A DNA stretch of 20,013 nucleotides from positions 1 through 20,013 of IMG/VR virus record IMGVR_UViG_3300025771_000269; one strand, written 5' to 3'. Position numbers and translations under genes: made by a program. Below the pieces are notes generated by a model. That model worked only from the letters and a program-made list of their open reading frames with translations. It did no database searches and was not told the origin of the DNA. The stretch is from a virus. Positions 2,099 through 20,013 of this stretch are shown here, in pieces (positions within the stretch are counted from its first letter, which is position 1; every line of letters begins with the position of its first letter).

Positions 2099-2650
2099 AT
2101 GGCTAGAGATAAGATTACACCTCTCGCTGCACCACCCGGACACTCGCTAACCGACGAACCGGGAAGGTGGCCGTGGGAAAGACCCCCTGTCTACGCAGAT
2201 CCAGATGATGCCATCGATTACATAACTCAAAAATTACAAGACGACAATACCCGCGAAGATCTCCTAAAGATGATGCTTGCAGGTATCACTGTCGAGGAAC
2301 TTGTTAATCAGGTATCTTTCAAGGGATTTATGGGCGGCTATTACAATCCTGATGTTGCAGAACTAATCAAACCTGCAATCGGTGTGTTCTTATTTAGTAT
2401 GGCTCTAGAAGAAGGCTTCGAACCTGTGATGTTCCGTGAACCACCAGAAGAAGGTCAGGTAGACGATGTCGGTTTCTTCAGGATTATGAAACAACGTAAC
2501 CCTGAAATGTACCTGAAGATGAACGAGGAAATAAACCGACAGCAACGTATGCAGGTAGATGATTTTATAGAAAAGACAAAGGGCGACTACACGGCTATTG
2601 TGGTTGAACCGTCTGAATCATTTCTTGATGTAGAGGAAACCGCACGATGA
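2099..2650 (+). CDS. Conserved marine-phage virion-associated protein, unknown role (183 aa)
   Basis: ATG at 2099, five bases after the previous stop, ending at TGA 2648-2650 in an ATGA overlap with the next gene. Residues 9-33 hold PLAAPPGHSLTDEPGRWPWERPPVY, a Pro/Trp-rich start, and residues 65-110 hold a Gly-rich part followed by a hydrophobic stretch (ELIKPAIGVFLFSMALEEGF). The carboxy half is acidic and helical (MKQRNPEMYLKMNEEINRQQRMQVDDFIEKT). The PGHSLT...PWE.PP start recalls small structural proteins that I have seen in marine phage genomes, but I cannot name a defined family. Sitting between two virion genes and coupled to the 975-residue protein, it may be a chaperone for that protein or a minor virion part. 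Confidence 0.65.
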   Translation: MARDKITPLAAPPGHSLTDEPGRWPWERPPVYADPDDAIDYITQKLQDDNTREDLLKMMLAGITVEELVNQVSFKGFMGGYYNPDVAELIKPAIGVFLFSMALEEGFEPVMFREPPEEGQVDDVGFFRIMKQRNPEMYLKMNEEINRQQRMQVDDFIEKTKGDYTAIVVEPSESFLDVEETAR

Positions 2651-5574
2651 GTATGGGCTTGGATAAACTTTTGCTTCTTGCTACGTATGCAGGTGGCGTA
2701 AAAGCAAAAAGTGATCGTGAACGCGAAGAACTTAAAAGAATAGAAGAAAAAGAAGCTAAAGCTGCTACTGCAGAGGCGGCAGAAGCAGAGAGGGTTCGCG
2801 TAGACGAAAACACCCCCCGATACGTTTATAAAACACAAGACGGTGCACTAGGTATGCATTCTATCGGTAGCCCGTTTAGATTGCCTCAAGGTTCTAAAAT
2901 CATTCAAACAGGCAACTATAAGAGTGGTTTTAAAGACTACGAGGGTGATTCTAAGATTGAAGATATTTTCAATATTAACGGAACACCTATGACCCGTGCC
3001 CAAGCTGCTGCAGCTATGGGACCATCGGTAAACCAACTAAAATTGGGATCTGCTCAGTTTCCGTTTATCGGTCAATCGGTAGATGGCAAATACGACTACA
3101 TAAATAAAGAAACCCTTGCCGCCTTAAAAGGACCAGATAGAGTTGAATTCCGTGACAGCTTTTATATCGGTGGCAAAAAAGTGGATTCAGAAGCAGAGGC
3201 TGTACGCATATCGCGTAGAGATGGGCTTCCTATTCGTCATGTTACAGATAAGTTTATAAACGGAAATTTGGAAAGCAGATCCGACAAGGACTATCAAGAA
3301 CCTGAAAAAGAAACGGGCGACGAATACTCCTTTGTTTATGGCAAATCTCCTAGCGGCAGAGATGTTATTATAAAAAGAAAAGACCCTAACTTCTTTATAG
3401 GTGAGGGCTATCCGGAAGCCGACATCAGAAAAGGTAGATTTGTTGGGGATCGTCTTGTAACTGAAATCTCTACAGATCTCAGAACTTCCACTGCAACTCA
3501 GTACATCTTAGATGACGGAACTGAAATATTAGATACAGATGATGAGTTTACCAATAAAGATAGAGCACGGGCTACTCAACAACGTCTCGTAACAATCAGT
3601 GCAGACGGTAAAACTATAACACCGAAAACCGACTATTCTTCATTCAGTGCAAAAAAGGAAAATGCAGCAGCTTCTAAAGCTATGGATTTGTCCAAGTATA
3701 CTGTACACATGGAAATGCCAAACGGTACTATTATAGGTGCAAAGGATGAACAATCTGAAATAGAAAAGCTAACAGCTATTCATTCAAATACATTCCCTAA
3801 CCTAGAATACATAAATTCTAAACCAGAAATAGCTGCAGAATACGTTAGAAATTTTGGGCCTGTACTTATTAATTACTTGAAACCCACTACGATGCAAGAG
3901 GGTCAAGTGTCTATAAACTTGACTACGTCTGCACGTAATGCAGCTTTGAATCAGGGTTTTGGTTCTATGCTTGCTGTAAACGGCATGAACGAGTATCTTA
4001 GATCTATAGATCTGCAAGGAAACGAAGACAAGAAACAACAGCTTCAAGTTACTTTAGGACAGCAGCACCCTGACAGCGCAGTCGTTGTTGTCGATGAACC
4101 CGTCACTGATCCAGCAGGAAATGATATTGGTAACCTGATTGTAGGTAAGGTCGCTGGTCCAGAATATAAGCCTTTCGTTGAGTCGGTTTTGTATCCTACA
4201 CTACTTTCAGCAACAGGCGATAAAGTTAAGGCTGAAAGATTTTTAGGTAGGTTAATTAAGGATAAGGTAAACTACGTTACGGGCGAAATTTCTAAAGATC
4301 CCAACGGTAACCCTATTCCTTCTGAGAACCAACCTTCATTAGACGCTCTGAAAACAATGGCTAACAACATAATTGTACCGGGTAAAACCGTGCAAGATAA
4401 GCCTAACGAGCCTCCTAAACAGGTTGTACCTCCTGTTACTGAGTTAGATGCGTTTATTGCAACAGTAAATGCGTCTGATCCCGATTCAGATTCAGTTTTA
4501 ATCGCTTTAGATTCAGATGCAAAAAGAAGAATAGCTAATCAGGCAGTAGCTATAGGCGGCGGTGATACTGAAGACATAATCACAACAGTCAGAGGATTTA
4601 TGTCTGTCACAGGGGCATATCAAACAGGCTTGCTACAAGAAAAGTATGGTTTGAACAACACCTCGCAAGGCCAGCAACGTAGACTAGACTACAAAGGTGT
4701 GGTCGATTCAACTAACCGTGCGGATGCTGTAATCGTAAACGCCCTTAGAACTTTTGTTAATCCTGTAGATGGTAGTGATTTACCTAGTACTGCATTTGCA
4801 AATGCTCTCTTAACAGTAGAAGGTATCCAGTACTTATCAGGAGAATTTAAAAACCGTCTAGTAAAGTTTGTTACGGGTGATGATCCTACAAACTTAGACG
4901 AAACTGAAGTAGCTAACACTTTTGTAAATAGCCTGTTATCTACTGCAGGTAACGCCGTTGACATGTTTAGCCCAGCGGCTGTACAGGAACTGAGGAAAGA
5001 CGCAGCACAAGTTGCAAAAGCAATCAACGAAGCTGACAGTGCTGAAAAAAGACTTCTTGCGGCTCGTGAATTCCACATCACGGTTCTTGCCTACGAACTT
5101 GCTGCAGCTATTCAGGGCGGCACAGGCGGACGTACAATCTCTGACCAAGACGTGGCTTTGATATTAGGCTCACTACGTCAGGGAACTTTTGCCAGCCAGA
5201 AATCACAAAAAGCTGCTTTATTTGCAGCACGGGATATGCTAAAAGACATACGTATACGTGCAACTTACCTGAGTTCACCTAACGTTCTTGATAATGCAGC
5301 GGTTGCTATTGCTGACGACTTTATGACCCGTGCAGATGTCATAGCACAACCGTACACCAGTGTCGATGCAGCTATCAGCTATGCAACAAACAAACTTAAT
5401 AAAGCACTGGCAACAGGCGAAAACGCGGCTGCAAACATGAGTGAGGCTGATCTACTGAAAGCATACAATCGTGCTTTGAGTCTTAGAAAACAACCTGCCG
5501 TAACCGAACTTACTGACGAAATTAAAAATTCACCATTGTATAAGGCCACCGTAGCCGGAATACGCGGGAGTTAA
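2647..5574 (+). CDS. Large virion protein, candidate T7 gp15-like ejection protein (975 aa)
   Basis: Starts at ATG 2647, overlapping the previous stop as ATGA, so it is probably translated by coupling. Residues 18-55 form a highly charged Lys/Glu/Ala helix (SDREREELKRIEEKEAKAA), likely a coiled coil. About 60-330 is mixed polar sequence with many short repeated-looking turns (GSPFRLPQG, YIGGKKVDSEAEA, KRKDPNFFIGEGYPEADIRKGRF). About 640-975 is mainly Ala-rich helix. No enzyme motif, signal peptide or clear membrane helix is visible. T7 gp15 (747 residues) lies between gp14 and gp16; this gene has the same place between a 194- and a 1561-residue protein. Function as part of the DNA-ejection apparatus is inferred from that layout only. 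Confidence 0.7.
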   Translation: MSMGLDKLLLLATYAGGVKAKSDREREELKRIEEKEAKAATAEAAEAERVRVDENTPRYVYKTQDGALGMHSIGSPFRLPQGSKIIQTGNYKSGFKDYEGDSKIEDIFNINGTPMTRAQAAAAMGPSVNQLKLGSAQFPFIGQSVDGKYDYINKETLAALKGPDRVEFRDSFYIGGKKVDSEAEAVRISRRDGLPIRHVTDKFINGNLESRSDKDYQEPEKETGDEYSFVYGKSPSGRDVIIKRKDPNFFIGEGYPEADIRKGRFVGDRLVTEISTDLRTSTATQYILDDGTEILDTDDEFTNKDRARATQQRLVTISADGKTITPKTDYSSFSAKKENAAASKAMDLSKYTVHMEMPNGTIIGAKDEQSEIEKLTAIHSNTFPNLEYINSKPEIAAEYVRNFGPVLINYLKPTTMQEGQVSINLTTSARNAALNQGFGSMLAVNGMNEYLRSIDLQGNEDKKQQLQVTLGQQHPDSAVVVVDEPVTDPAGNDIGNLIVGKVAGPEYKPFVESVLYPTLLSATGDKVKAERFLGRLIKDKVNYVTGEISKDPNGNPIPSENQPSLDALKTMANNIIVPGKTVQDKPNEPPKQVVPPVTELDAFIATVNASDPDSDSVLIALDSDAKRRIANQAVAIGGGDTEDIITTVRGFMSVTGAYQTGLLQEKYGLNNTSQGQQRRLDYKGVVDSTNRADAVIVNALRTFVNPVDGSDLPSTAFANALLTVEGIQYLSGEFKNRLVKFVTGDDPTNLDETEVANTFVNSLLSTAGNAVDMFSPAAVQELRKDAAQVAKAINEADSAEKRLLAAREFHITVLAYELAAAIQGGTGGRTISDQDVALILGSLRQGTFASQKSQKAALFAARDMLKDIRIRATYLSSPNVLDNAAVAIADDFMTRADVIAQPYTSVDAAISYATNKLNKALATGENAAANMSEADLLKAYNRALSLRKQPAVTELTDEIKNSPLYKATVAGIRGS

Positions 5575-5575
5575 T

Positions 5576-8500
5576 ATGCCACAAGACGGGTTTTCACTGT
5601 TTGAAGATGTAGCTAAAAAGGTTGCTAAAACTACCAATCCTACTGTAAGTCTTTTAGGAGAGGCGAAGGAGCAAACCGACCAGCTTCAAGTGCCTAGAAA
5701 AACATACGCACCTCTACCGTCAGGCGAAGCTGATCCACGAGGTGAGGACTTTCCTTTCCTTGCACCGTTTGGTTTAGGCAAAGAAATATCACAAGAACCT
5801 GCCCTAGATCCAGACCCACTCAAGATTGAATACGAATACGGTGAACCATTCTTGGGTGCAAAGGCTGTAGTTAAGCGTCGTCGTCCAGTTTTGGATGAAA
5901 CAAAAATCACACAAATTGTTTCTGTACGAGATTTGGACTTAAAAAAACAAGACGTGATGGAAGCAAACTACGCTGAGTCAAAAACTGGCGAACGGTTTGC
6001 GTTTACCTCTGCAGACGACTATGAAACAAGACTAAACATCTTAGATCAGGGAAAAGCAACGAGTCTTTCATATCAAGTAGGCGATAACGTTCAGACTGTT
6101 CCACTACCTTATGATAAACTAGTAGAAGATCTCACCAGTACTCCAGAAAATATTCGGGATAAGCTTGCGGCTATTCCTATGGTTTCTGATGAAGAAAACT
6201 ACAGATATATGATAAACACGGGCGTAGATGATGAAACCAACCGTGCAATTTTTGCCAATCAGTTTGTAACTTTCCTAAGAAATCAAGGTGTCAAAGATGA
6301 CCGTACAATCGCTGGGATCGTATCCCACAGCGTAAATCTTCCACAATTCGGTGGGGTCGGTTTTGGTGATGCATCAAAACTAGTCGGTTTAACGAATGAA
6401 GTAGTCAAGTTTCCGTTTGAAGCTGGCGCATATGTTCTGGGTGAAGCCTACGACGCCATATCTGAGGATATGGATACAGAAGGTTTTGATCTAGGTGATT
6501 CTGTTGATCGTCAACGCTTCTTTGACAGATACTTTCCACGCATGGCGGCGGCAGTACAAGATAGATACACGCAGCTTGGCTTAGATGTTTCTTATCCAGT
6601 AGCTGAAGCTATTGCCCGGAGGTTTTCTGGCATAGGAACTCAGGCCGTAGCCACTACGGCTGAAGTGGTTGGACCAACTAAGACAGGAACCCTTCTAAAA
6701 AGAGGGTTTGATGTAGCTGGTATAGGTTTCGGCGGTGCTAATGAAGCCCGTATGTTCAAGAACTGGTCAGACGATTACACAAAGCGTTTCCCAAATGAAT
6801 CCCCAGAAGCTGTTATGCAAAAGTACATCGACATTCGTAAGTCTCAGATGTTCGGTAAAGATGTAGCTGGACTATCACAGGAACTGTACGATGTTAAACT
6901 TCTTGGTGGTGTTGCTAAAATAGCAGCTAAACCAATTGCATTTATCAACGGTATTCGTGTAAGTAGTCGGTTTAGAGCAGGTATGCAGCTTACAGATGCC
7001 GCGTTAGCTGCAGACAATCGTATAGAAGTTCGTAACATGACAAGATACAGAACGAACTTACAAGGACAAAAAAACGGCATTATTGATCGTGCACGGAGCG
7101 AGGGTAGAGACTTAAACCCTAGTGAACTTGAAAGACTAGCAGAGGTAGATCGGAAACTAGATGTAACGAATACCGAATTGCGTTCCATCGTTGCACAATC
7201 AGAAGTTCCAAAGTTTATGCGGGAAGCTGCTAAACAGGACAAGTACATAGTTATAGGTTCTGTAGCTGCAAATCAAGCATTTGAAATATACGGTGGAGAT
7301 CCCGCTCTTGGCGAATTTGTAGGTGTGCTGGGGGGTATAGGTTACAGCTTACTTCGTGGACGCAACGAGGCAAAGACACTTCTTAAAAAGTTCAACCTAG
7401 AAAAAGCCTCAGATGCAAAGCTACTAGATGCAGCGGACATGGTTCTTACGAACATGAGGAATCTAGATCCGGACTTCCAAGAAGCACTTCTGACTCGTGT
7501 GAAGTACTTTGAGGGTTTGAAACAGGAGTTGCTACAGGTAGGCGTAAATCCCGAAGTACTAAATAGATCTGTAATTCGTATGATGGGCTTGTCGGTTTTG
7601 CAGGTAATCGAAGAAGGTCACCGAATAGAGATGAACGGCCCTCAAGCTGCAGGGTTTGGTGGTAACTTTCAAGCCCTCACAGAGAACTTGGCACTACAAC
7701 AAAAGTTTGCTGCAGAACTTCGCACTACGTTGCAAACACTTGCAAATGCACAAGGCGTACAGACAAAAGGTACTGCCGTAAACAAGCTTTATGAAACTGT
7801 AGATGCAGCTTTGAAACATGCTGATGGCATGATCCGGCAGTTAGATTCAGACTTGGATGTGTTAGGTCGTAACTATGAAAAGCATGTAAAAGGTCAGATT
7901 TTAGGTGGATCAGAAAACCTACAAGCGTTGTCTGACGGTTCGGTTGCAGACTTGAGAACCACATTCGACAATCTTGCTGAACACAACATCAGTCAAATAG
8001 ACAATAAAAGTGTAGAAGCTATCCGCAACGAAGTACGTCGAACAGACGCCAGCCTCTTAGACGCAGTCAAGCAAAAGGCTAATCAAATTGGACGGGCGTT
8101 GCCTACACAGGGAGATGTACAAAACAAGGTAGAAAAAGTACTGCCTGACGGAAGAATCATACGTCCCGGACGTGCGCCTGTAAAGAACGGACAAATACAA
8201 ACTGCCGGGGATGCACTAGCTGCAGTTGTTGAAAGCGCAAATTTACGGGAACGTAACATAGCTTCTGCGCCGTACCGTAAGCTAGACGCGGAAGTGTTTG
8301 TTACCTCGACGGGCCAACGTATTCAAGGTACGCCTACAACTGACGCTGGACCTGTTCTAGATGAAATGTTCAATGTTCTTGGGACAGACGACGGTATAAC
8401 CATTCTGCTTGAGATGTCTGGTAAAACCTTATCTAGATCACAAAGCAGTAAAACCTTTGCATTCTTGGATGATGTTGCTGGCGGATTCTTAAGTACAGTT

Positions 8501-10261
8501 GCTGAAAGACAAGGCGTATCTGTAGATGACTTGGTAAACGATGCAATACAGGCTGCTGGTGACTATGACAAACGCATACCTAGAAACCTGTTCGCTGCGA
8601 TGCAGATCAGAAAAGACTTAGCAGCCCAAGACATCGATGTAGGCGTTCTGCCTATGACGTTTATTCAGGCAAAAGAACTGACTGATGCGTTGGGCCAAAT
8701 GGCATTTAAGGCACCAGAAGCCGCTTCTGCAAAGATTAGAAATCTTGAAAACATTGCGGAAGGAACAATGGATAGCTTCTCTGTTCGTTTGGAAAACGGT
8801 CAAGTCATAACCCTAGATCAGCTTTACGTAGCAGATGAAGCGTCACCAACAGGTACATCTTCAGTTAGAGAATACTTAGCAAGGGCAAACGAAGGTTGGT
8901 CTGAATACAAGCGCAGATTCTACGACGATGAAAATTTAAGTAAGTGGCTTGGTTGGTCAGACAAAAAAGCAAGAAAGCCTGTTGGCAATTCTGTAGACTA
9001 TCCTCTTGGCATTGACTACGGCAAGAATGCCCCAACAACTTGGTTAAATCTAGACAAAGTAGCGGATGCCAAACCTGAAGAGCAAGCAAGATTGATGCGT
9101 TCTTTGGCAGAAGGTATCGGTCAGCTAGATCCAACTACAGGTACCTATCGTATTGCACTCAACAGCGCAGAAGGTCAAGCTTTCCGTGAGGTGCTTGGTG
9201 CTCACATGCGTGAATGGATGATTAATACGGTCACATCTGGCAAGCCTATTGACTTCAATGAATTCAGGCGCAAGGCAGCATCCCTTGAAAATGCATTTGT
9301 CGGATTCACAGAAGATGGCAAAGAAATTGCTATGATAGATAGTCAACGCATCATGCGCGATGTGTTCCCCGACTTTAGCCCAGATTCTTTGAATGAAGAC
9401 ATCTTCAATGCGGGTGTCGAAAAGATGAACAGCGCAATTAAGCGTGAAGCGGCACGGGTTACCAAAGAAGCAACCATAATAAAGAACGGGCTTCAGGACA
9501 GCCGCAAGTACCTAGAGCGGTTTTCTGCTGGACGATTAGATGCAGCGGATGCCGCGTCGGTTTTGATATCTGGCGGGACTGCACGGGTAGCAGAGGTCAA
9601 GCAGCATCTCAAGCTTCTAGGTCGTACAGACGATGAAATAAACGCCATCCTAAAAGCTTTGATCGTAGATGAGGTAGAAAAGAAAGCCTTTAAGCTTACA
9701 GGCGTACACACCCCAGACCCTGCGAATCCGACTAAATTGATTCCAGAGGTTGATCTTGATGACGAACAGCTAAAGACTATTATGGGCTTCAACGATCCTG
9801 CCCAAAGAGAAGTTGTTAAATCCATAGTCGGTAAAAAAACATATGATGTGTATGAAAGCATTGTACAGTTTGTAGCAAACGAGAAGCTTGCGGGTGTGCA
9901 GGGACTTAACATGACAGGCATCCCTCGCAAATTCTCTATCGAAAGTTACATCAGCCGCTTCTATGCTATCAATCGCGGTGTGGTAAGCTTTCGGTATGTT
10001 GGTACTGAAGCCGTACTACAGGAAATGCGCCGTAAAAATATGAGCATACTTTCGATGGCACTCACTAATCCAAAAGTCGGTGAGTTAGTTATGGAAATGA
10101 TAGCTACAGGAAAGCCACTACCAGCACAAAAAGAAAACGAACTTTTTGAATTGATGGTTATCGGTATGGAACGCTTCGACAACTGGCGTGAACGGTCAAA
10201 AGACCCTGTAAAAGTTGTAAGTGATTACGGTCACGAATTTATATTTAACGCAATTCCATAA
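5576..10261 (+). CDS. Giant virion protein, candidate T7 gp16-like ejection protein (1561 aa)
   Basis: The longest gene here; ATG at 5576, one base after the previous TAA. It begins with a polar, Pro-rich part (1-110), followed by mixed alpha-helical sequence to the end. A Gly-rich hydrophobic stretch near residues 558-592 (VIGSVAANQAFEIYGGDPALGEFVGVLGGIGYSLL) could contact a membrane. Many segments are long charged helices, for example around 505-550 and 1270-1310. I found no lytic transglycosylase signature like that at the amino end of T7 gp16, and no peptidase or nuclease motif. Size, final place among the large late genes and the preceding 194/975-residue proteins fit a gp16-like core protein that travels with the DNA. 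A fibre role is less likely because no beta-repeat or collagen-like region is seen. Confidence 0.7.
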   Translation: MPQDGFSLFEDVAKKVAKTTNPTVSLLGEAKEQTDQLQVPRKTYAPLPSGEADPRGEDFPFLAPFGLGKEISQEPALDPDPLKIEYEYGEPFLGAKAVVKRRRPVLDETKITQIVSVRDLDLKKQDVMEANYAESKTGERFAFTSADDYETRLNILDQGKATSLSYQVGDNVQTVPLPYDKLVEDLTSTPENIRDKLAAIPMVSDEENYRYMINTGVDDETNRAIFANQFVTFLRNQGVKDDRTIAGIVSHSVNLPQFGGVGFGDASKLVGLTNEVVKFPFEAGAYVLGEAYDAISEDMDTEGFDLGDSVDRQRFFDRYFPRMAAAVQDRYTQLGLDVSYPVAEAIARRFSGIGTQAVATTAEVVGPTKTGTLLKRGFDVAGIGFGGANEARMFKNWSDDYTKRFPNESPEAVMQKYIDIRKSQMFGKDVAGLSQELYDVKLLGGVAKIAAKPIAFINGIRVSSRFRAGMQLTDAALAADNRIEVRNMTRYRTNLQGQKNGIIDRARSEGRDLNPSELERLAEVDRKLDVTNTELRSIVAQSEVPKFMREAAKQDKYIVIGSVAANQAFEIYGGDPALGEFVGVLGGIGYSLLRGRNEAKTLLKKFNLEKASDAKLLDAADMVLTNMRNLDPDFQEALLTRVKYFEGLKQELLQVGVNPEVLNRSVIRMMGLSVLQVIEEGHRIEMNGPQAAGFGGNFQALTENLALQQKFAAELRTTLQTLANAQGVQTKGTAVNKLYETVDAALKHADGMIRQLDSDLDVLGRNYEKHVKGQILGGSENLQALSDGSVADLRTTFDNLAEHNISQIDNKSVEAIRNEVRRTDASLLDAVKQKANQIGRALPTQGDVQNKVEKVLPDGRIIRPGRAPVKNGQIQTAGDALAAVVESANLRERNIASAPYRKLDAEVFVTSTGQRIQGTPTTDAGPVLDEMFNVLGTDDGITILLEMSGKTLSRSQSSKTFAFLDDVAGGFLSTVAERQGVSVDDLVNDAIQAAGDYDKRIPRNLFAAMQIRKDLAAQDIDVGVLPMTFIQAKELTDALGQMAFKAPEAASAKIRNLENIAEGTMDSFSVRLENGQVITLDQLYVADEASPTGTSSVREYLARANEGWSEYKRRFYDDENLSKWLGWSDKKARKPVGNSVDYPLGIDYGKNAPTTWLNLDKVADAKPEEQARLMRSLAEGIGQLDPTTGTYRIALNSAEGQAFREVLGAHMREWMINTVTSGKPIDFNEFRRKAASLENAFVGFTEDGKEIAMIDSQRIMRDVFPDFSPDSLNEDIFNAGVEKMNSAIKREAARVTKEATIIKNGLQDSRKYLERFSAGRLDAADAASVLISGGTARVAEVKQHLKLLGRTDDEINAILKALIVDEVEKKAFKLTGVHTPDPANPTKLIPEVDLDDEQLKTIMGFNDPAQREVVKSIVGKKTYDVYESIVQFVANEKLAGVQGLNMTGIPRKFSIESYISRFYAINRGVVSFRYVGTEAVLQEMRRKNMSILSMALTNPKVGELVMEMIATGKPLPAQKENELFELMVIGMERFDNWRERSKDPVKVVSDYGHEFIFNAIP

Positions 10262-11435: not shown

Positions 11436-11583
11436 AGATACCCTCTTTCGGTAGGAAGACCATAACAAATGAACCACAGCTAGGGCAACTCAAATTTGTT
11501 TCCATGCAGTATTCTTCGTCTTCTTCCGCGATGTCATGGTCTGCACCCCATACCAACTCGTGTTTACAATGCCAGCAGTTCAA
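11410..11583 (-). CDS. Small zinc-ribbon protein, TTG start (57 aa)
   Basis: This short frame starts with TTG at 11583, with a perfect AAGGAG at 11596-11591 and a seven-base spacer. It encodes MNCWHCKHELVWG, an acidic linker (DHDIAEEDEEY), then LSCPSCGSFVMVFLP. Cys 3, 6, 33 and 36 form two CxxC knuckles, enough for one zinc ribbon. It ends at TGA 11412-11410, overlapping the nuclease-like gene by 26 bases, and its start overlaps the end of the T5orf172 gene by 20. I recall tiny proteins of this kind (CWHC ... CPxC) in pelagic phage genomes; their role is unknown. Binding to host RNA polymerase or nucleic acid would fit a ribbon but is not shown. Confidence 0.75.
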   Translation of the reverse strand: MNCWHCKHELVWGADHDIAEEDEEYCMETNLSCPSCGSFVMVFLPKEGIYDPSKNNT

Positions 11584-12034
11584 TTGCTTTCTCCTTACTT
11601 ATCTTAAACCATTCGCCACGACGCTCGACAGATTCAGCCTCAAACTTATTTAGCAGGTCGGTTTCGGTAGCATGTCTGTCCTCTGTTTTTACAGATTTAA
11701 TTATGATGTAGTCCCGAAAGGGTGAAGATGTTTGGTAGTTGGATAACCTGTCGGTTGCAATTGCCGCCTTACCAACCTTCACCCACTCAGGCCACGCTGG
11801 GTTCATAATCAAGTATACTTCCCCTTCGTACGTCTTTTCAATCTCGCTATGTGACCAAGCATCATCTAAGGATTTGTATTTTCCCGGTTTATGTAAAGGG
11901 CTTTTCTTAGATATTTCTTTACCATTTACATACATACGCAAGGAATCCCGACGCTTTACGGCATCAGGATTATCCTTGTAGTACATAGGCTTTCCTGTGT
12001 ACGGATTTGGGTCGAAGCGATTAGGCACTTTCAT
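11564..12034 (-). CDS. T5orf172/GIY-YIG-like domain protein (156 aa)
   Basis: A frame open from further upstream most likely starts at ATG 12034 or, with better spacing from AGAGG, at GTG 12028. The amino third (NRFDPNPYTGKPMYYKDNPDAVKRRDSLRMYVNGKEI) is basic. The carboxy two thirds hold EGEVYLIMNPAWPEWVKVGKA, then DRLSNYQTSSPFRDYIIIKS, then a conserved Glu (ATETDLLNKF) and RRGEWFKIS. This is the layout of the T5orf172/MUG113 branch of the GIY-YIG superfamily, where VYLI and VKVGKA replace GIY and YIG. Whether it cuts DNA is open. The gene sits among small accessory genes at the end of the replication block. It overlaps a 32-residue gene upstream and the zinc-ribbon gene downstream. Confidence 0.75.
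   Translation of the reverse strand: MKVPNRFDPNPYTGKPMYYKDNPDAVKRRDSLRMYVNGKEISKKSPLHKPGKYKSLDDAWSHSEIEKTYEGEVYLIMNPAWPEWVKVGKAAIATDRLSNYQTSSPFRDYIIIKSVKTEDRHATETDLLNKFEAESVERRGEWFKISKEKAIELLAL
11591..11596 (-). promoter_or_regulatory. Ribosome binding site that decides the TTG start of the zinc-ribbon gene
   Basis: AAGGAG read on the minus strand, seven bases before TTG 11583. It lies within the 3' end of the T5orf172 gene, where it is read as Lys-Glu codons. Confidence 0.7.
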
Positions 12035-12119
12035 CCTCTTTTGGTAAGCCTTCAAAACTATCATAGCGTTCATAGTCAGATAACACAAGGTCAAAACCGC
12101 TGTCGTAGTTGTCAGTCAT
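12021..12119 (-). CDS. Candidate micro-gene, acidic peptide (32 aa)
   Basis: ATG 12119 overlaps the previous stop as ATGA, and the frame ends at TAA 12023-12021 inside the start region of the T5orf172 gene. The peptide MTDNYDSGFDLVLSDYERYD and its acidic tail FEGLPKEDESA are rich in Asp, Glu and Tyr. The coupled start and the fact that the stretch fills an otherwise empty gap argue for translation. No family is recognised. It may serve mostly to carry ribosomes to the next gene, or act as a small acidic inhibitor; both are guesses. Confidence 0.45.
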   Translation of the reverse strand: MTDNYDSGFDLVLSDYERYDSFEGLPKEDESA

Positions 12120-12392: not shown

Positions 12393-14321
12393 CTACGCCG
12401 CATTTAAATCAACAACTTCACACACACCTGCAGTACAGGCAAGTTCACGAGAACCGCTGGTATTGTCTTCCTTCTCAAACTCAGAAAGCTTGTTCCAGTC
12501 GATAACCACACCTTCGTACAGCTTCTTCCATTCCAAGTATTCATCTGGTTCAATGTCTTGGTACGGGGCTTGCTGATAGGTATGATCGCTGTGCGGCAAG
12601 AACGATACACCTGATGCCACGTCAAAGTTCTCATACACCCACGCACCGACTTCCATCCACTCGTGTTCCTTAACCGACACGGTGATAGACGGTTTGTGCT
12701 CACACCAGTGAATCGCGTATGTCTTCCACAGTTCTAGCTGTTCAATAGCAGTAGTCTGCGTACGAGTTACGGCACCGTCAGGTGATTTCATTGGGAAGCT
12801 AAAGACTGTTGTAGAGTCCGGCTTCATCATGTCACGCTCGTTGTGTACGCCGCTTTCGATGAGGAACTGTGTCAACGGGTCTTTGTTGTCGCCACGAACC
12901 GTACGAATGAAGTAATCGTTGTGCCGTGCGTGAATACCACTAGCTGCGTCCACGAGTTGAGATACAGTACCCGATGGCTTTACACAGGTGATTGCTGCAC
13001 TCTGAGGTATTCCAAGCATGTTCGCAAACTTCTTGTTTGTATCTACGGCTACTTGCCGCATTTCTTCTAGCCAACGCTTGCTGTCTACGTTCTTTGAAAG
13101 CACGTGATGATCCATGATACCAGTCAAGGATACGCCCAATAAACGCTCTTCCTCTGTGTTGTCCTTCCATATCTTCCTCAGGTATTTGAAGTCAGTCAAG
13201 GTAGATTGCAAAGTACCCAAGATGGTTGCGAGGCGAACCTTGCGCTTCAAATCATATAGCGAGTCGGTTTCACGAACCACCACCTCTGACAAGTTACAGA
13301 ACTGGTAGCCACGCAAGATAATCTCAGAGCAGGGATTTGTACCCCACATGTGGCCTTGCTCACGGCGTCCGTTGCGACCGACTTGCTTGTCTGCCGCCTC
13401 ACGGTTGAACATACCACGTTCACCTGACTTACTGTCGTACAGGGCAAGCCACTCACGCATAAACGTACCCATCTCAGGCTTCTGCTTGTAGGCTACAGAA
13501 TTGTTTGCAAGCGCACGTTGCGGCTCACCTTCCCACCACATACCTGACTTAGCGTGTGCCATCTGGTCATCGTTTAAGTTAGATAAACTAATCAGGGCAG
13601 AGCGTCGTACGCCACCGACAACCACAATCTCGCCAATCTTACACATCAAGTCGTGGCATTCGATAGGAAACAACCGACGCCCTTTAGCTTTCTTGAATGT
13701 CTCAACAACAAAGTTGAAGAGATCTGCAAGAGGCTGGGGGCCGGATGCACGTCCACCCATAATCTTGAGGCGTTCACCTGCTGGGCGAACCTGAGACATA
13801 TCCCAAGACGGGACTTGTCCAGCATAGAGCAACGCAATCAGTTCGCGCAAAGCTTTTGCCCATCCCGGTTTGCTATCGCCTACTGTAATTACAATATCTG
13901 AATCACCAAAGTTGTCTGACACAACGGGAAGCTTGTCCACGTTTTCCCGTTCAACGCTGAAACCGACACCCGTACCACACATCAAAATATACATACATTC
14001 GTCAAACGCACGGGGGCTATCAACAGGAATGTAGCTACAGTTATATCCACAGATATTATCACGAGCCAATGCAGACCCTGCTGTCATCATTGCTCTCATG
14101 GATGGCATGACATCAAGACTCAAGATACCTTCACGTAACTCGTCGGTTACCTTCTTGTCTAGCTTGACGTTGCACTTACCTTGAATTTGGTTTTCCATGA
14201 AACCGACGTATCGGTCAACTGTCTCATCCCAATTCTCACGGCGTTGTTCATTATCTAGCCAACGTGCGTAACGTGACTTGTGAATGAATTGTTGATATGG
14301 TGTTGGTAACATGTTGCTCAT
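12393..14321 (-). CDS. nrdJ: Class II (adenosylcobalamin-dependent) ribonucleotide reductase, monomeric type
   Basis: Reduces ribonucleotides to deoxyribonucleotides using coenzyme B12, supplying dNTPs for phage DNA synthesis in the cytoplasm. Residues seen: C91 and C95 in NICGYNCSYIP (one is the likely N-terminal redox cysteine), MCGTGVGFSVE near 114-124, a GGVRRSA loop near 248, the catalytic NPCSEI with C331 and E333, KPSGTVSQL, and a C-terminal CTAGVC pair (C629, C634) that would pass electrons to the active site. The length (642) and single chain fit the Lactobacillus leichmannii type rather than class I, and there is no small-subunit gene here. The ATG lies four bases after the DUF3310 stop, with GAGG upstream. 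All key cysteines appear present, so it should be active if the host supplies B12. No cobalamin riboswitch is seen. Confidence 0.92.
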   Translation of the reverse strand: MSNMLPTPYQQFIHKSRYARWLDNEQRRENWDETVDRYVGFMENQIQGKCNVKLDKKVTDELREGILSLDVMPSMRAMMTAGSALARDNICGYNCSYIPVDSPRAFDECMYILMCGTGVGFSVERENVDKLPVVSDNFGDSDIVITVGDSKPGWAKALRELIALLYAGQVPSWDMSQVRPAGERLKIMGGRASGPQPLADLFNFVVETFKKAKGRRLFPIECHDLMCKIGEIVVVGGVRRSALISLSNLNDDQMAHAKSGMWWEGEPQRALANNSVAYKQKPEMGTFMREWLALYDSKSGERGMFNREAADKQVGRNGRREQGHMWGTNPCSEIILRGYQFCNLSEVVVRETDSLYDLKRKVRLATILGTLQSTLTDFKYLRKIWKDNTEEERLLGVSLTGIMDHHVLSKNVDSKRWLEEMRQVAVDTNKKFANMLGIPQSAAITCVKPSGTVSQLVDAASGIHARHNDYFIRTVRGDNKDPLTQFLIESGVHNERDMMKPDSTTVFSFPMKSPDGAVTRTQTTAIEQLELWKTYAIHWCEHKPSITVSVKEHEWMEVGAWVYENFDVASGVSFLPHSDHTYQQAPYQDIEPDEYLEWKKLYEGVVIDWNKLSEFEKEDNTSGSRELACTAGVCEVVDLNAA

Positions 14322-15647: not shown

Positions 15648-16027
15648 AACTCTAGCCCTATCGATTGAAATCTTTTTATCAAGTACCCTGCCAGTTTTGG
15701 GGATAGTCTTTCGATGTTGGTAAGTTCTGTTGTTAAAGGGTGCATCGGCACACATACATAAGCCCCGTTAAAAGATTTTCTACTTATACGCTGTAATTCT
15801 TCTTCTACAGTCTTTATATCCCTAACTTCCGTATCTGCGTGAAGCGAACCTTCCTTGCTGTAGTTGTTTACAAGGGTGAGGGGTAGCCCGTTTTCATGCA
15901 AACGCATCTGGGCTACCCGACGTTCTCCCCCTGACTTGGAAACCGACTCAATGTAGATATGATGTAAGCTTTTATTCATGCTCATCAAATCTACCTCGTA
16001 GTTTTTTACAAACAGGTACGGCATCAT
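15644..16027 (-). CDS. Hypothetical protein between Cas4-like nuclease and endonuclease I (127 aa)
   Basis: ATG 16027 overlaps the previous stop as ATGA, with AAGGA close upstream (the following ATG 16024 has better spacing and is also possible). The sequence has a likely beta-rich first half (MMPYLFVKNYEVDLMSMNKSLHHIYIESVSKSGGERRVAQMRLHENGLPLTLVNNY) and a helical second half ending LAGYLIKRFQSIGLEF. No known motif. Being coupled on both sides to two nucleases suggests a partner role in DNA processing. Confidence 0.6.
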   Translation of the reverse strand: MMPYLFVKNYEVDLMSMNKSLHHIYIESVSKSGGERRVAQMRLHENGLPLTLVNNYSKEGSLHADTEVRDIKTVEEELQRISRKSFNGAYVCVPMHPLTTELTNIERLSPKLAGYLIKRFQSIGLEF

Positions 16028-16917
16028 ACTTCCTTCTTCTTTAAAGTGGCGTACCAAACTTGCGGTGGATTCTTAGCCCGTGACGTAACACGGTCGTGCA
16101 AGACTGCATTAGGCCAGCAGTGATGTCTGTAACCACACAAGTTGCATTCCTTCGGTAGTAGTTTGTTTCCAGTCTCTACAACCTCGCCATCCTTCTTGTA
16201 CGTTTCAGGCACAGCCTTGTACGGCTTGAATGGCTTTACGTCGGGGTTGTTAAGAAACTTGATACGCTCTGCCGCATCCTTCAGGTATGCTTCTTTGTCA
16301 TCTTGTGACCAGTCAGGAACCTCAACGATAGCTACCTGACCGTTGGATTTGTTAACGACAATCCACCCGCCAAACGGCATGTCGGTTGCTTCAGCATACA
16401 AGAACCCCTGCATGAGATAGCCAAAGGGATCGTCTTCCTTTAGCTTTTCATATCCACCTAGTCCTGTAAACTTATAGTTGAATGCCCAATCACTGGCTGA
16501 CTTAACATCCCAAACTTTCTCGACACCAGTTTCATCACGGATGATAACGTCAAGAGTTCCCTTTACAACCTCATCACCAATCTTCAATTCAACAGCACGT
16601 TGATAGTCAACGATGTCTACCCCCGCCTCTTTCATAATTAGCATGATGATAGATTCCGTTAGATCACCGAACATAAACCTGAACAGGGTATTATATTCCA
16701 TCTCTTCCTTGATGCCCTGCTTATCCAAAACCTGTTGGCAAAGAGGACGACCCAAGCCCGACATACGAATACGGTAACCGCCGCGTTCAGTTGTAAGTTG
16801 TTTAACTACAGAGTCGCTGCATTCTTTTTGAAAGGCAGCAAGAGTCTCAGGGGAGACAGTAGTTTCCCCCCTGAGAGCCTTAGTCATGTAGTCTTGTATT
16901 TTAAGCAGCGTTAGCAT
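16024..16917 (-). CDS. Cas4/RecB-like PD-(D/E)XK nuclease with a predicted Fe-S cluster (297 aa)
   Basis: Probable exonuclease for host DNA breakdown or end processing. Counted from ATG 16917: C60 (GRPLCQQVL), E88 in FMFGDLTE, D123 in KGTLDVII, D137-V-K139 in VWDVKSAS, the RecB-type QxxxY motif (Q170, Y174 in YLMQGFLYAEA), and a C-terminal CNLCGYRHHC with C258, C261 and C267. One early Cys and a late C-x2-C-x5-C is the four-cysteine arrangement that holds a 4Fe-4S cluster in Cas4 and AddB nucleases. There are no Cas genes or CRISPR here, so it serves DNA metabolism. ATG 16917 lies inside the end of the previous gene; TTG 16959 would be longer, and ATG 16887 shorter. Confidence 0.85.
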   Translation of the reverse strand: MLTLLKIQDYMTKALRGETTVSPETLAAFQKECSDSVVKQLTTERGGYRIRMSGLGRPLCQQVLDKQGIKEEMEYNTLFRFMFGDLTESIIMLIMKEAGVDIVDYQRAVELKIGDEVVKGTLDVIIRDETGVEKVWDVKSASDWAFNYKFTGLGGYEKLKEDDPFGYLMQGFLYAEATDMPFGGWIVVNKSNGQVAIVEVPDWSQDDKEAYLKDAAERIKFLNNPDVKPFKPYKAVPETYKKDGEVVETGNKLLPKECNLCGYRHHCWPNAVLHDRVTSRAKNPPQVWYATLKKKEV

Positions 16918-17761
16918 CTTCGAAGTCCGCCGCCAGATCAATGTCGTCATCGTCAGCAAGAAGCTTTACAGCCTCACGATGCTGATTCATAACGTTCTCA
17001 TTGTGACCCTTTACAGTCTCTGCAAACATGCCCATGAGTTCCTTATCCTGATCTGTGATATAGACTTCCTTCTCCAATGCTGGCACAGGAGTCCAGAAAG
17101 TTACGCTACCATTTTTATGGCGATGTGTAGTAAGGGAGATCTCACACTTCTGCATAAGCTTCTTTTGCTTAGACAAGCCGCCAATAAAATCGCCGATAGG
17201 TTTGTAACCGGAACGCTTGAAGTACGCAACCACTGGCTGGTCTTCAACCTTCACGTCGGTTCCATCTGCTGTCTTGAAGTCACCAGATATCTTACCATAA
17301 ATAACCTGATTACAAACAACGGCACGTGATCGCAAGTAGGCGGGGTCATCTTTCGATAGTTTCTCCTCTTCCTCACGAGTCAATCTTCCAGCTTTATTGA
17401 TACCATCGGTTGATGGGAACATACCAGACAGCGTCGGTTTTTGTACCGACTTAGATGAAAAGGCACCACTCTCCTGATCCCACAGGCTATATTCAAAAGT
17501 ACGCAGTATAAATCTCATGCTTACTTTCTCTGCGTAGATAAACCGACCATCTAGGTACATCTTCCACGCACCACGAGGCAGGGTCTTACCATCTTCAGTC
17601 TCTGCATCGTAGTTGATGTTGAGGCGAGGCAAACCGACCTGACGGTTGGTATTACCGCCTTGACCGCTTGCTTCCATTAGGGCTTCAGCATCGTCACTAT
17701 TAAATGCTGAAACAATTGCGTCCATATCGTCAATGTTCATTACGTCTGTCCCTGTATCCAT
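16901..17761 (-). CDS. Candidate single-stranded DNA-binding protein (286 aa)
   Basis: An acidic leader (residues 1-32) is followed by a mixed beta/alpha core with many aromatic and basic residues (GAWKMYLDGRFIYAEKVSMRFILRTFEYSLWD; VVAYFKRSGYKPIGDFIGGLSKQKKLMQKCEISL; HRHKNGSVTFWTPVPAL) and a strongly acidic tail (LLADDDDIDLAADFEDANAA). An aromatic-rich core with an acidic tail is the general plan of phage single-strand binding proteins such as T7 gp2.5, whose tail contacts the polymerase. The gene lies directly between the polymerase and the Cas4-like nuclease. The tail does not end in Phe as in T7. I see no definite OB-fold signature, so the call rests on context and the tail. AAGGAG lies 11 bases upstream of ATG 17761; ATG 17740 is a possible alternative. 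Confidence 0.6.
   Translation of the reverse strand: MDTGTDVMNIDDMDAIVSAFNSDDAEALMEASGQGGNTNRQVGLPRLNINYDAETEDGKTLPRGAWKMYLDGRFIYAEKVSMRFILRTFEYSLWDQESGAFSSKSVQKPTLSGMFPSTDGINKAGRLTREEEEKLSKDDPAYLRSRAVVCNQVIYGKISGDFKTADGTDVKVEDQPVVAYFKRSGYKPIGDFIGGLSKQKKLMQKCEISLTTHRHKNGSVTFWTPVPALEKEVYITDQDKELMGMFAETVKGHNENVMNQHREAVKLLADDDDIDLAADFEDANAA
17433..17450. repeat. Inverted repeat built on the GTCGGTTT octamer
   Basis: GTCGGT (17433-17438) and ACCGAC (17445-17450) are perfect complements with a six-base loop TTTTGT. It lies inside the candidate single-strand binding protein gene. The left half is one of the dispersed octamers. Confidence 0.6.
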
Positions 17762-17800: not shown

Positions 17801-19342
17801 TTACAGTTCTACTTCTTCAGAGTCAAGCCAATTTTTGCCTATTTTTAATTCTATTCCGACAGGCATATCGTACTCGACACCGTACCGATTGACTGTTTCT
17901 TCAGGTAAACTCTTCATAGCATAGGCTAACAGCCCGATGCAAGTCTCTTTTTCATCTGGATGTACATCCAATACAATCGAATCGTGTACAGTATTGCAAA
18001 TTACAGAATTCAGATTTCTTACACGCATCATTTTATCTAGGCGAACCAGAGCGGCTGGCAACAAGTCGGCTGTTGCAAACCCCTGTACTGGATAGTTACA
18101 GATAGCCGTACGGTTTGTGGCTGTACCCCACTCAGTCCAACGGGCTGACGGGAAAGCGTACTGTCTACCGCTTGGCAATGTTATAACTTTTGTTCTTACA
18201 GCTTCTTTCTGCAGTTCCTTGTGCCACTCAGTAACGCCCTCATACTTTTCCTTGAACGCACGATAGTAGCGTTGCTGATTTTCTGTACCACTGACACCGC
18301 CATACAAAGGCTTGAACGTGTGTGCCTTTGCTTCTTGACGTGTGCATCCGATAACGCTTGCAGTATAGCTGTGAACATCAGTACCATCCTTCACATCAAT
18401 GTAGGCTTGTGCATCCTTAGACAAGAAACCCGCTACCCTGAATTCTAGTTGCGAGTAATCCCCCTCAAGTATAAAGCCACCCGTGAAGCGGCTCTCGACA
18501 ACCTTCCGTATAGCGAAGGTACTTCCACGCGGCATATTCTGAAAGTTAGGATTCCTAGACGAAAGACGACCCGTTGCCGTAATACATTGCATGAATTCAG
18601 GATGGATGAAATTATTCGCGTCAACATTATTTTTCATTCCTTCTACAAAAGTTGACAGATAGGTACGCAAAGCACTGTAGCGCACATAGGCTACAACGAA
18701 TTCGTGGGCATCACCCATCAAGTCGGTTTGTCGGTTTTCTAAGGTAACCTTGTCGGTTTTGAAACCTGCCGCCGCCGTGTCCATCGGATCACGAGGTATC
18801 AGCTTGAATCCAGCTACTTCCCGTGTAGGTATATAAAGAACACCAGCCCCGTCACACCGCCGACAGACACGCACAGCCTTTCCTATCGTGCCATCCTTCT
18901 TGCGTGGATGAAACCGACCCTCTCCCCTACACTCATCACACTGTTGTCCCCGTGTCTTGTACACAACTTCAGTCATGTTCTTCACGGCAGACTTGAACTC
19001 GCCACGCTTCATCCGTGTACGCATCTTGGGCTTCATTGTGTTGCCGCGCATCTCGTGTCCCAAGTTGAAGATGCGTGACCACGTCTTCTTATCTTTAACA
19101 CGCCGTGAATAGAGCAACACGCTCCTGTCATCGGGGCTGGACAGGTTGACAGGGGTATCCCCCATAGCGTCCCGTGCGAGGCGTTCTAGGCGAACCTCAA
19201 GTTCATCCATCTCCTGCTGGTATTCCTGTCGGATATCTTCTAGGGTATCTAAGTTAATCTTCAGGCCATTCCGCTCCATACGAGCCAGAACGTCTGTCAT
19301 CTCAAGCGACAATCTCAATGTCGGTAGTAAAGTCCGTTGCAT
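17801..19342 (-). CDS. polA: Family-A DNA polymerase, polymerase part only, with DnaJ-type zinc motifs (513 aa)
   Basis: Copies the phage genome. Counted from ATG 19342: VLARMERNGLKIN near 18-30 is the usual start of the PolA domain; C135-x2-C138-x-G-x-G and C160-x2-C163-x-G-x-G are two CxxCxGxG motifs of the DnaJ central domain, able to bind one zinc; TATGRLSSRNPNFQNMP leads to motif A with D295 in GDYSQLEFR; motif B is R335, K339, F343, Y347-G348; motif C is H453-D454-S. So the catalytic aspartates are intact and the O-helix residue equal to E. coli 762 is Phe. The 3'-5' exonuclease domain is not in this chain: it is the preceding gene, in another frame and overlapping by 41 bases. GAGGA eight bases before ATG 19342 supports this start; the frame is open to ATG-free codons at 19369, and ATG 19300 is a weaker alternative. 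Confidence 0.93.
   Translation of the reverse strand: MQRTLLPTLRLSLEMTDVLARMERNGLKINLDTLEDIRQEYQQEMDELEVRLERLARDAMGDTPVNLSSPDDRSVLLYSRRVKDKKTWSRIFNLGHEMRGNTMKPKMRTRMKRGEFKSAVKNMTEVVYKTRGQQCDECRGEGRFHPRKKDGTIGKAVRVCRRCDGAGVLYIPTREVAGFKLIPRDPMDTAAAGFKTDKVTLENRQTDLMGDAHEFVVAYVRYSALRTYLSTFVEGMKNNVDANNFIHPEFMQCITATGRLSSRNPNFQNMPRGSTFAIRKVVESRFTGGFILEGDYSQLEFRVAGFLSKDAQAYIDVKDGTDVHSYTASVIGCTRQEAKAHTFKPLYGGVSGTENQQRYYRAFKEKYEGVTEWHKELQKEAVRTKVITLPSGRQYAFPSARWTEWGTATNRTAICNYPVQGFATADLLPAALVRLDKMMRVRNLNSVICNTVHDSIVLDVHPDEKETCIGLLAYAMKSLPEETVNRYGVEYDMPVGIELKIGKNWLDSEEVEL
18722..18759. repeat. Cluster of three GTCGGTTT octamers, two in direct tandem
   Basis: Copies at 18722-18729, 18730-18737 and 18752-18759, all in the same direction, within the polymerase gene just downstream (in gene sense) of the zinc-motif region. 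This is the densest group of the motif in the window. Confidence 0.9.
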
Positions 19343-19886
19343 TATATAATTCCTCAAAGGTAGTGCCAAAGGCTTCTAGCTGTTTAACTGCAATTTCTTC
19401 TGTAGCAAGTACGTCAGCTTTACCGTACTCTTCTACTATCTCCCACGGTATATCATAGAAGGTCTTACCGCTTTTAAGATACGGCTCCACAAGGTCTTTC
19501 TCCTTGCGGGTAACGTCATACTTTTCTGCAAGAGAAGCAAGTCCAAGAGGCCAACGCTGGGCTTTCGATAGGACATATTCCGCCACCATCGTATCAAAGA
19601 TATGACCGTCATAAACAAACCCGCACTCCCGTATCCACGATAAGTCAAACTTGATGTTTTGTCCCACAACTACATCAGCTTCGTCAAGTGCCTCTTGGAA
19701 TAATTCTGGGGCAAAGTCGTGGGCTTGCCTGTCTGCGTGGTAATAGCAGTGGTAGTGTATGTAGGGTGAAGACAGACGTTTGTACCCGATGGATACGAGT
19801 CGGTTTCCAAAGTATGGCAGGGCAGTAGTGCCGCCGCTATCCTTGTGTATGTGGGTTGTTTCCACGTCAAATGTCATAACGTTCAT
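19302..19886 (-). CDS. DnaQ-like 3'-5' proofreading exonuclease, separate from the polymerase (194 aa)
   Basis: Removes mispaired 3' ends; in most PolA proteins this is a domain of the same chain. Counted from ATG 19886: Exo I MTFDVETT with D7 and E9; Exo II VVGQNIKFDLSW with N77 and D81; a conserved FDTMVAEYVL; Exo III EYGKADVLATEEI with Y154 and D158. The four acidic residues are therefore present and the domain should be active. The last residues (ATDFTTDIEIVA) are unlike a PolA linker and come from the part that overlaps the polymerase gene in a different frame. The start shares its A with the previous stop (TGATG), after GAGGGG further upstream. A longer frame from 19940 runs into the upstream gene and is not preferred. 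Confidence 0.9.
   Translation of the reverse strand: MNVMTFDVETTHIHKDSGGTTALPYFGNRLVSIGYKRLSSPYIHYHCYYHADRQAHDFAPELFQEALDEADVVVGQNIKFDLSWIRECGFVYDGHIFDTMVAEYVLSKAQRWPLGLASLAEKYDVTRKEKDLVEPYLKSGKTFYDIPWEIVEEYGKADVLATEEIAVKQLEAFGTTFEELYNATDFTTDIEIVA
19351..19355 (-). promoter_or_regulatory. Ribosome binding site of the separate polymerase gene
   Basis: GAGGA read on the minus strand, eight bases before ATG 19342, inside the last codons of the exonuclease gene. It supports independent initiation of the polymerase chain rather than a frameshifted fusion. Confidence 0.65.
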
Positions 19887-20013
19887 CAGTAATAAACCCC
19901 TCGTTCGATGTCGATTTGACCGTTGATCATACCGTGCCAACCATTCAGCTTATTCTTGGATATGCAAATGTGACGTACAGTATTTTCTACCTCACTAGAC
20001 CCTGTCTTGCCAA
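19886..20013 (-). CDS. 3' end of an unidentified replication-block protein (partial)
   Basis: An open frame enters from the right edge (first full codon at 20011) and stops at TGA 19888-19886, sharing one base with the ATG of the exonuclease gene. The 41 visible residues begin GKTGSSEVENTVRHICISKN and end IDIERGVYY. I do not recognise this carboxy end. Immediately upstream of the polymerase genes, a helicase, primase or other replication protein would be expected in T7-like phages, but the visible part does not prove it. Confidence 0.65.
   Translation of the reverse strand, partial: GKTGSSEVENTVRHICISKNKLNGWHGMINGQIDIERGVYY

Follow-up and report, generated by a model that had tools for sequence, protein, structure and literature searches.

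Klenow and T7 DNA polymerases are single chains with an exonuclease. The HMO-2011-type polymerases, for which HMO-2011 gp12, HTVC033P gp22, and the enzymes of CRP-1, CRP-3, CRP-207, and CRP-738 were compared here, have the same arrangement. Qin et al. (2022) described all of them as one chain, and their polymerase tree included only sequences longer than 540 aa with at least 80% coverage (PMC9038755). The isolate sequence of HMO-2011 confirmed the single chain that the first-pass annotation had assigned to this phage.

Phage polymerases divided between two genes have also been described. Split PolA occurs in the OM43 phages MEP401 and MEP402 (PMC10580990), and ICP2 and Alcaligenes phage QDWS535 likewise encode a family-A polymerase in two genes. 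The T4-like gp43A/gp43B pairs of Aeromonas phages 25 and 44RR are a further split replicative polymerase; in phage 25 both chains purify together and show polymerase activity (PMC2988022). In E. coli Pol III, the proofreading exonuclease is encoded separately from the polymerase (alpha-epsilon, DnaE-DnaQ; PMC12926913).

The stretch of DNA analysed here (the window) is a virus record of 20 kb (20,013 nucleotides) from IMG/VR. Its exonuclease and polymerase occupy two overlapping reading frames, and the features of the region are as follows.

19886..20013, minus strand: 3' end of a DnaB-like helicase gene, whose TGA overlaps the exonuclease ATG (TGATG)
19302..19886, minus strand (read 19886 to 19302): exonuclease gene, 194 aa plus TGA, a stand-alone 3'-5' proofreading exonuclease of the DEDDy type (PF01612)
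19351..19355, minus strand: Shine-Dalgarno (SD) sequence GAGGA of the polymerase gene, within exonuclease codons and 8 nt 5' of the ATG
19340..19342, minus strand: ATG start codon of the polymerase
19302..19342, minus strand: overlap of the exonuclease and polymerase frames, 41 nt, +1 offset, under polymerase-frame constraint
17801..19342, minus strand (read 19342 to 17801): polymerase gene, 513 aa plus TAA, family A without an exonuclease domain; laid out as thumb, partial DnaJ-like zinc region, palm, and fingers
18854..18940, minus strand: two CXXCXGXG motifs, CDECRGEG and CRRCDGAG, in the partial DnaJ-like region, a signature of HMO-2011-type polymerases

Both ORFs are present exactly as the first-pass annotation had described them, one base apart with a 41-nt overlap, and the polymerase has its own GAGGA (19355-19351), 8 nt ahead of the ATG at 19342-19340. 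The full helicase ORF is present in contig L005, which is identical to the window there. The locus resembles the HMO-2011-type polymerases in its order (exonuclease first, then a partial DnaJ-like region that carries two CXXCXGXG motifs, then polymerase), in an identity of 38-48% across the polymerase part, and in the helicase, which lies upstream in several of those phages; unlike them, it does not encode a single chain. It shares the two-gene form of the family-A enzyme with MEP401/402, ICP2, and QDWS535, but in those phages the break lies inside the polymerase domain, whereas here it lies at the boundary between exonuclease and thumb. MEP401/402 have a small ORF between the pieces, whereas the genes of the window overlap and have no insert. 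The gp43A/gp43B pairs differ in belonging to family B and in that their split accompanies an inserted endonuclease gene or an untranslated stretch. With Pol III alpha-epsilon we propose a likeness in mode, that of a polymerase with a separate DEDD-type proofreading exonuclease, although the Pol III polymerase is of an unrelated family (C), its exonuclease is of the DEDDh type, and the origin is different from that of the window pair. Split phage polymerases and a separate Pol III proofreading subunit are known; a boundary split in HMO-2011 relatives is apparently new, as no report of one was found in the literature searched, outside which most subscription papers fall.

The 194-aa protein matched Pfam PF01612 (DNA_pol_A_exo1) with E = 3.7e-12, and the 513-aa protein matched PF00476 (DNA_pol_A) with E = 1.9e-51, which passes the cut-off. 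Exonuclease residues D7, E9, D81, Y154, and D158 were invariant in 42 homologues; the DEDDy catalytic residues of the family-A 3'-5' exonuclease are intact, but on a separate chain. The PF00476 palm and fingers and motifs A (D295), B (R335/K339/F343), and C (H453/D454), invariant in 41 homologues, identify the larger protein as a family-A polymerase, and the partial DnaJ region with its two CXXCXGXG motifs ahead of the polymerase core identifies it as HMO-2011-type. The DnaJ-like region itself matched PF00684 at E = 5.8e-4, under the curated cut-off. The invariance of the catalytic residues and of motifs A, B, and C bears out the earlier description of both proteins as complete.

No four-letter code word considered for joining the chains in one model gave a clean read in more than 19 relatives, and the commonest words failed for the window, so the two chains were modelled separately with AlphaFold. 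The exonuclease model (pLDDT 87.7) had PolA exonuclease domains as its top PDB matches. In the polymerase model (pLDDT 84.2), the first thumb helix begins at residue 6, and the Foldseek matches in the PDB were Bst and Klenow, with E down to 5.6e-19. Among PHROG families, the exonuclease matched the single-chain polymerase family phrog_17 at 1.8e-23 and, weakly, PHROG 403/192 at 9.9e-12, a stand-alone phage exonuclease of the same superfamily named 'DNA polymerase exonuclease subunit'. At 18275-18345 (minus strand), the residue equivalent to position 762 of E. coli Pol I is Phe (RQEAKAHTFKPLYG), as in HMO-2011-like virioplankton polymerases (PMC6302109).

We then compared the junction among relatives. 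The polymerase, the exonuclease, and a pair of divergent relatives served as queries against viral contigs, and the best 80 matches per search were taken; the 80 best-matching loci of the first search came from 68 data sets, counted by their IDs. Both parts were readable in at least 296 loci, a redundant count in which overlapping loci of one contig recur. The polymerase frame was +1 to the exonuclease frame in 296 of 296 loci, and a joined exonuclease-polymerase was found in none of these 296 loci of the split clade. Collapsing left at least 174 distinct junction sequences, all with the +1 offset, and at least 56 clusters at 92% polymerase identity, all split. Every close relative found in IMG/VR had the same split and offset. 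Since independent data sets give the identical arrangement, the split is not an assembly error, and the refutation by an indel that the first-pass annotation had envisaged fails. Judged from these sequences, a stable inherited split in a large, uncultured marine phage group, rather than a sequencing error, is confirmed. Single-chain enzymes were found in 168 loci, comprising 160 contigs that are relatives of HTVC033P and HMO-2011 (best matches listed), six HMO-2011-type isolates, and, at a greater distance, two Vibrio phages. The phage collection searched contained no cultured representative of the split clade, bacterial genomes yielded only distant matches (27-32%), and plasmids yielded one distant PolA only.

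The start signal of the polymerase was conserved together with the split. An SD-like tetramer lay within 45 nt 5' of the polymerase part in 56 of 56 split clusters, compared with 7 of 168 single-chain genes; because of shared ancestry, these cluster counts are descriptive and are not independent trials. Every split relative kept an SD, in the form GAGGA, AAGGA(G), or GGAG. In the 54 clusters for which a common anchor could be set, the start codon, ATG in almost all and TTG or GTG in a few, was located 10 or 13 nt from it. The Glu residue whose codon contributes the SD was encoded by GAG in 47 of 47 clusters, although GAG accounts for 42% of the Glu codons in the rest of the exonuclease, and in the seven remaining clusters Glu was replaced by Lys (AAG) or Gly (GGA) with the SD still formed. 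As a control, an ATG with an SD of at least 4 bases occurred in 21% of random +1-frame windows of polymerase genes, compared with 169 of 174 junctions. An automated SD picker chose a later ATG in 7 of 174 junctions through a longer chance match; the usual GAGGA and ATG were also present there. These patterns indicate that the ribosome-binding site of the polymerase is under selection, and they support separate polymerase initiation from the internal SD and ATG. The proposal that the split was stabilised by internal initiation agrees with the SD and start codon kept throughout the split clade. A subgroup of loci (L042, L046, L047, L050, and L105) has TTG for ATG at the polymerase start and a longer SD match, TAAGGAG, which is perhaps compensatory.

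The overlap had the diversity pattern of a polymerase reading frame. At polymerase codon positions 1, 2, and 3, diversity was 0.306, 0.086, and 0.550 in the overlap (26 sites before the exonuclease stop; 50 clusters) and 0.317, 0.174, and 0.597 in polymerase-only sequence, so that the overlap evolves as polymerase sequence. Position 3 of the polymerase codons coincides with position 1 of the exonuclease codons, which leaves the exonuclease tail free to vary. The tails measured 9 to 25 residues from the FEE anchor and differed in sequence as well, and tail residues 185-194 had pLDDT below 50 in the AlphaFold model and are predicted to be disordered. The codon-position diversity and the low-confidence tail model uphold the earlier view that RTLLPTLRLSLEM, just after the polymerase ATG, is natural PolA sequence and that the exonuclease tail is not. 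The shortest overlap, 17 nt, was seen in L342, L346, and L347, where a TAA ends the exonuclease only nine residues from the start of the FEE anchor, an illustration of how freely the tail can be trimmed. We also considered a polymerase start at the ATG just past the exonuclease stop (TGAgATG). This candidate was rejected: some groups have GTT or GTC at that codon, and the overlap 5' of that ATG is under polymerase-frame constraint, a pattern which shows translation of the overlap in the polymerase frame.

A tree built from 105 polymerase sequences by a quick method, with some long branches among the isolates, set all 30 split representatives apart from the single-chain sequences by a branch with support of 100. 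Single-chain relatives surround the split clade, and the tree needs one change of state. In the alignment to single-chain homologues, the exonuclease part extends to the final helix and is followed directly by the polymerase part, with no inserted element and no lost conserved residue at the junction; the composite rows of this junction alignment were built for alignment only. The exonuclease/polymerase domain boundary of Klenow lies at about residue 520. A profile alignment paired polymerase position 14 with Klenow chain position 210, which is residue 533, so the break is close to the domain boundary. The nearest single-chain sequences are about 50% identical to the split clade, a gap across which the ancestral event is not directly visible. 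Among the best 80 matches for each of six queries, none was intermediate between the split clade and the single-chain clade of HTVC033P; such intermediates may exist beyond these matches. The wider group as a rule has single chains, as do Klenow and T7 polymerases, which makes one ancient fission the simplest reading. The earlier suggestion that a one-base shift split an ancestral single gene is supported, as far as one origin in the tree and a junction that aligns without insert or loss can indicate, with the qualification that the shift could have been a +1 insertion or a -2 deletion, between which the sequences do not tell.

On this evidence, we consider it highly probable that a single ancient fission between exonuclease and thumb became fixed through internal initiation and yielded a two-subunit proofreading polymerase. 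The window would carry the replication module of an HMO-2011-related marine phage, in whose ancestor a single-chain exonuclease-polymerase gene would have been split once by a frameshift of +1 (or -2) in the exonuclease-thumb linker. The polymerase would then be started separately at the ATG inside the end of the exonuclease gene, using an SD embedded in exonuclease codons, and the exonuclease, with a stop codon of its own, would end in a short tail that is not conserved. The two chains would meet at the former domain interface and proofread as two subunits, like Pol III alpha and epsilon. For the gene arrangement, sequence comparison shows a single origin, separate intact frames, and conserved start signals. 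Each of nine long relatives (45-56 kb) carried one PolA and one exonuclease of this family. From these single members of each family, together with the catalytic residues kept in both parts, we infer a two-subunit polymerase, whose proteins would be made separately, bind each other, and proofread together.

The alternative with the strongest standing accepts separate translation and holds that the exonuclease has become detached from the polymerase and works by itself, perhaps in recombination or DNA degradation, while replication proceeds without bound proofreading. Stand-alone phage DEDD exonucleases do exist, although the match to the 'DNA polymerase exonuclease subunit' of PHROG 403/192 is weak. 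However, the exonuclease adjoins and overlaps the polymerase at every locus, its catalytic residues never vary, and the parts are arranged overall as in the single-chain enzyme, and we therefore regard independent action as rather unlikely.

Programmed +1 ribosomal frameshifting, by which the two frames would be joined and the main product would still be a single exonuclease-polymerase chain, is in our judgement very unlikely. The offset is always +1, the overlap is long enough for a shift, and other genes, with RF2-type sites, are known to shift by +1 at a stop codon. The junctions of the relatives, however, share no common slippery site or conserved stop context: fifteen different stop contexts were present among the 174 junctions, the stop itself was TGA, TAG, or TAA, and the codon before it was variously GCT, ATT, GTT, ACT, TAT, CTT, GAT, AAT, ATC, or TCT. 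The exonuclease stop also occupies different codons by group, several codons earlier or later in some, and frameshifting would leave the conserved SD and start codon without need. Some residual frameshift product may be made.

An indel from sequencing or assembly in one contig, of the kind that often produces a one-base offset in assemblies, has a negligible chance of explaining 174 homologous junctions that differ by synonymous changes and in-frame indels and always keep the +1 offset. Just as improbable is a decaying gene, an intron, or an intein, which the polymerase genes broken at other places in the related phages MEP401, ICP2, and QDWS535 might bring to mind, but against which stand two intact frames under coding constraint, alignments with no insert at the junction, and the lack of a second PolA in the nine long relatives.

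Several neighbouring genes of the window were also noted. Downstream of the polymerase, 16024-16959 (minus strand) encodes a Cas4-domain-like exonuclease (phrog_1990, E = 2.9e-27); this gene overlaps the end of the preceding gene, whose 286-aa product has no family match. A 642-aa ribonucleotide reductase with B12-dependent (class II) features is encoded at 12393-14321 (minus strand), near MazG and DUF3310 genes. The ORF at 11564-12094 (minus strand), within the replication/metabolism module, has a T5orf172/MUG113 (GIY-YIG-like) domain and is possibly a mobile or homing-type nuclease. A 1561-aa protein encoded at 5576-10261 (plus strand) has no Pfam or PHROG match, and the 975-aa protein of the adjoining gene (2647-5574) has no PHROG match.

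The split clade offers a clean natural case of gene fission by frameshift at a domain boundary, after which an internal ribosome-binding site came under selection; the single-chain relatives allow comparison. Family-A proofreading between two chains thereby becomes a directly testable question. It is conceivable, if doubtful, that the exonuclease has become an exchangeable subunit made at its own rate, in which case the ratio of exonuclease to polymerase, and hence the mutation rate, would be set by translation. The 513-aa polymerase falls short of the >540-aa filter, so the split lineage was presumably left out of the HMO-2011 survey. This suggests that surveys of marine phage polymerases filtered by length or coverage miss a diverse lineage, comprising at least 56 clusters at 92% identity.
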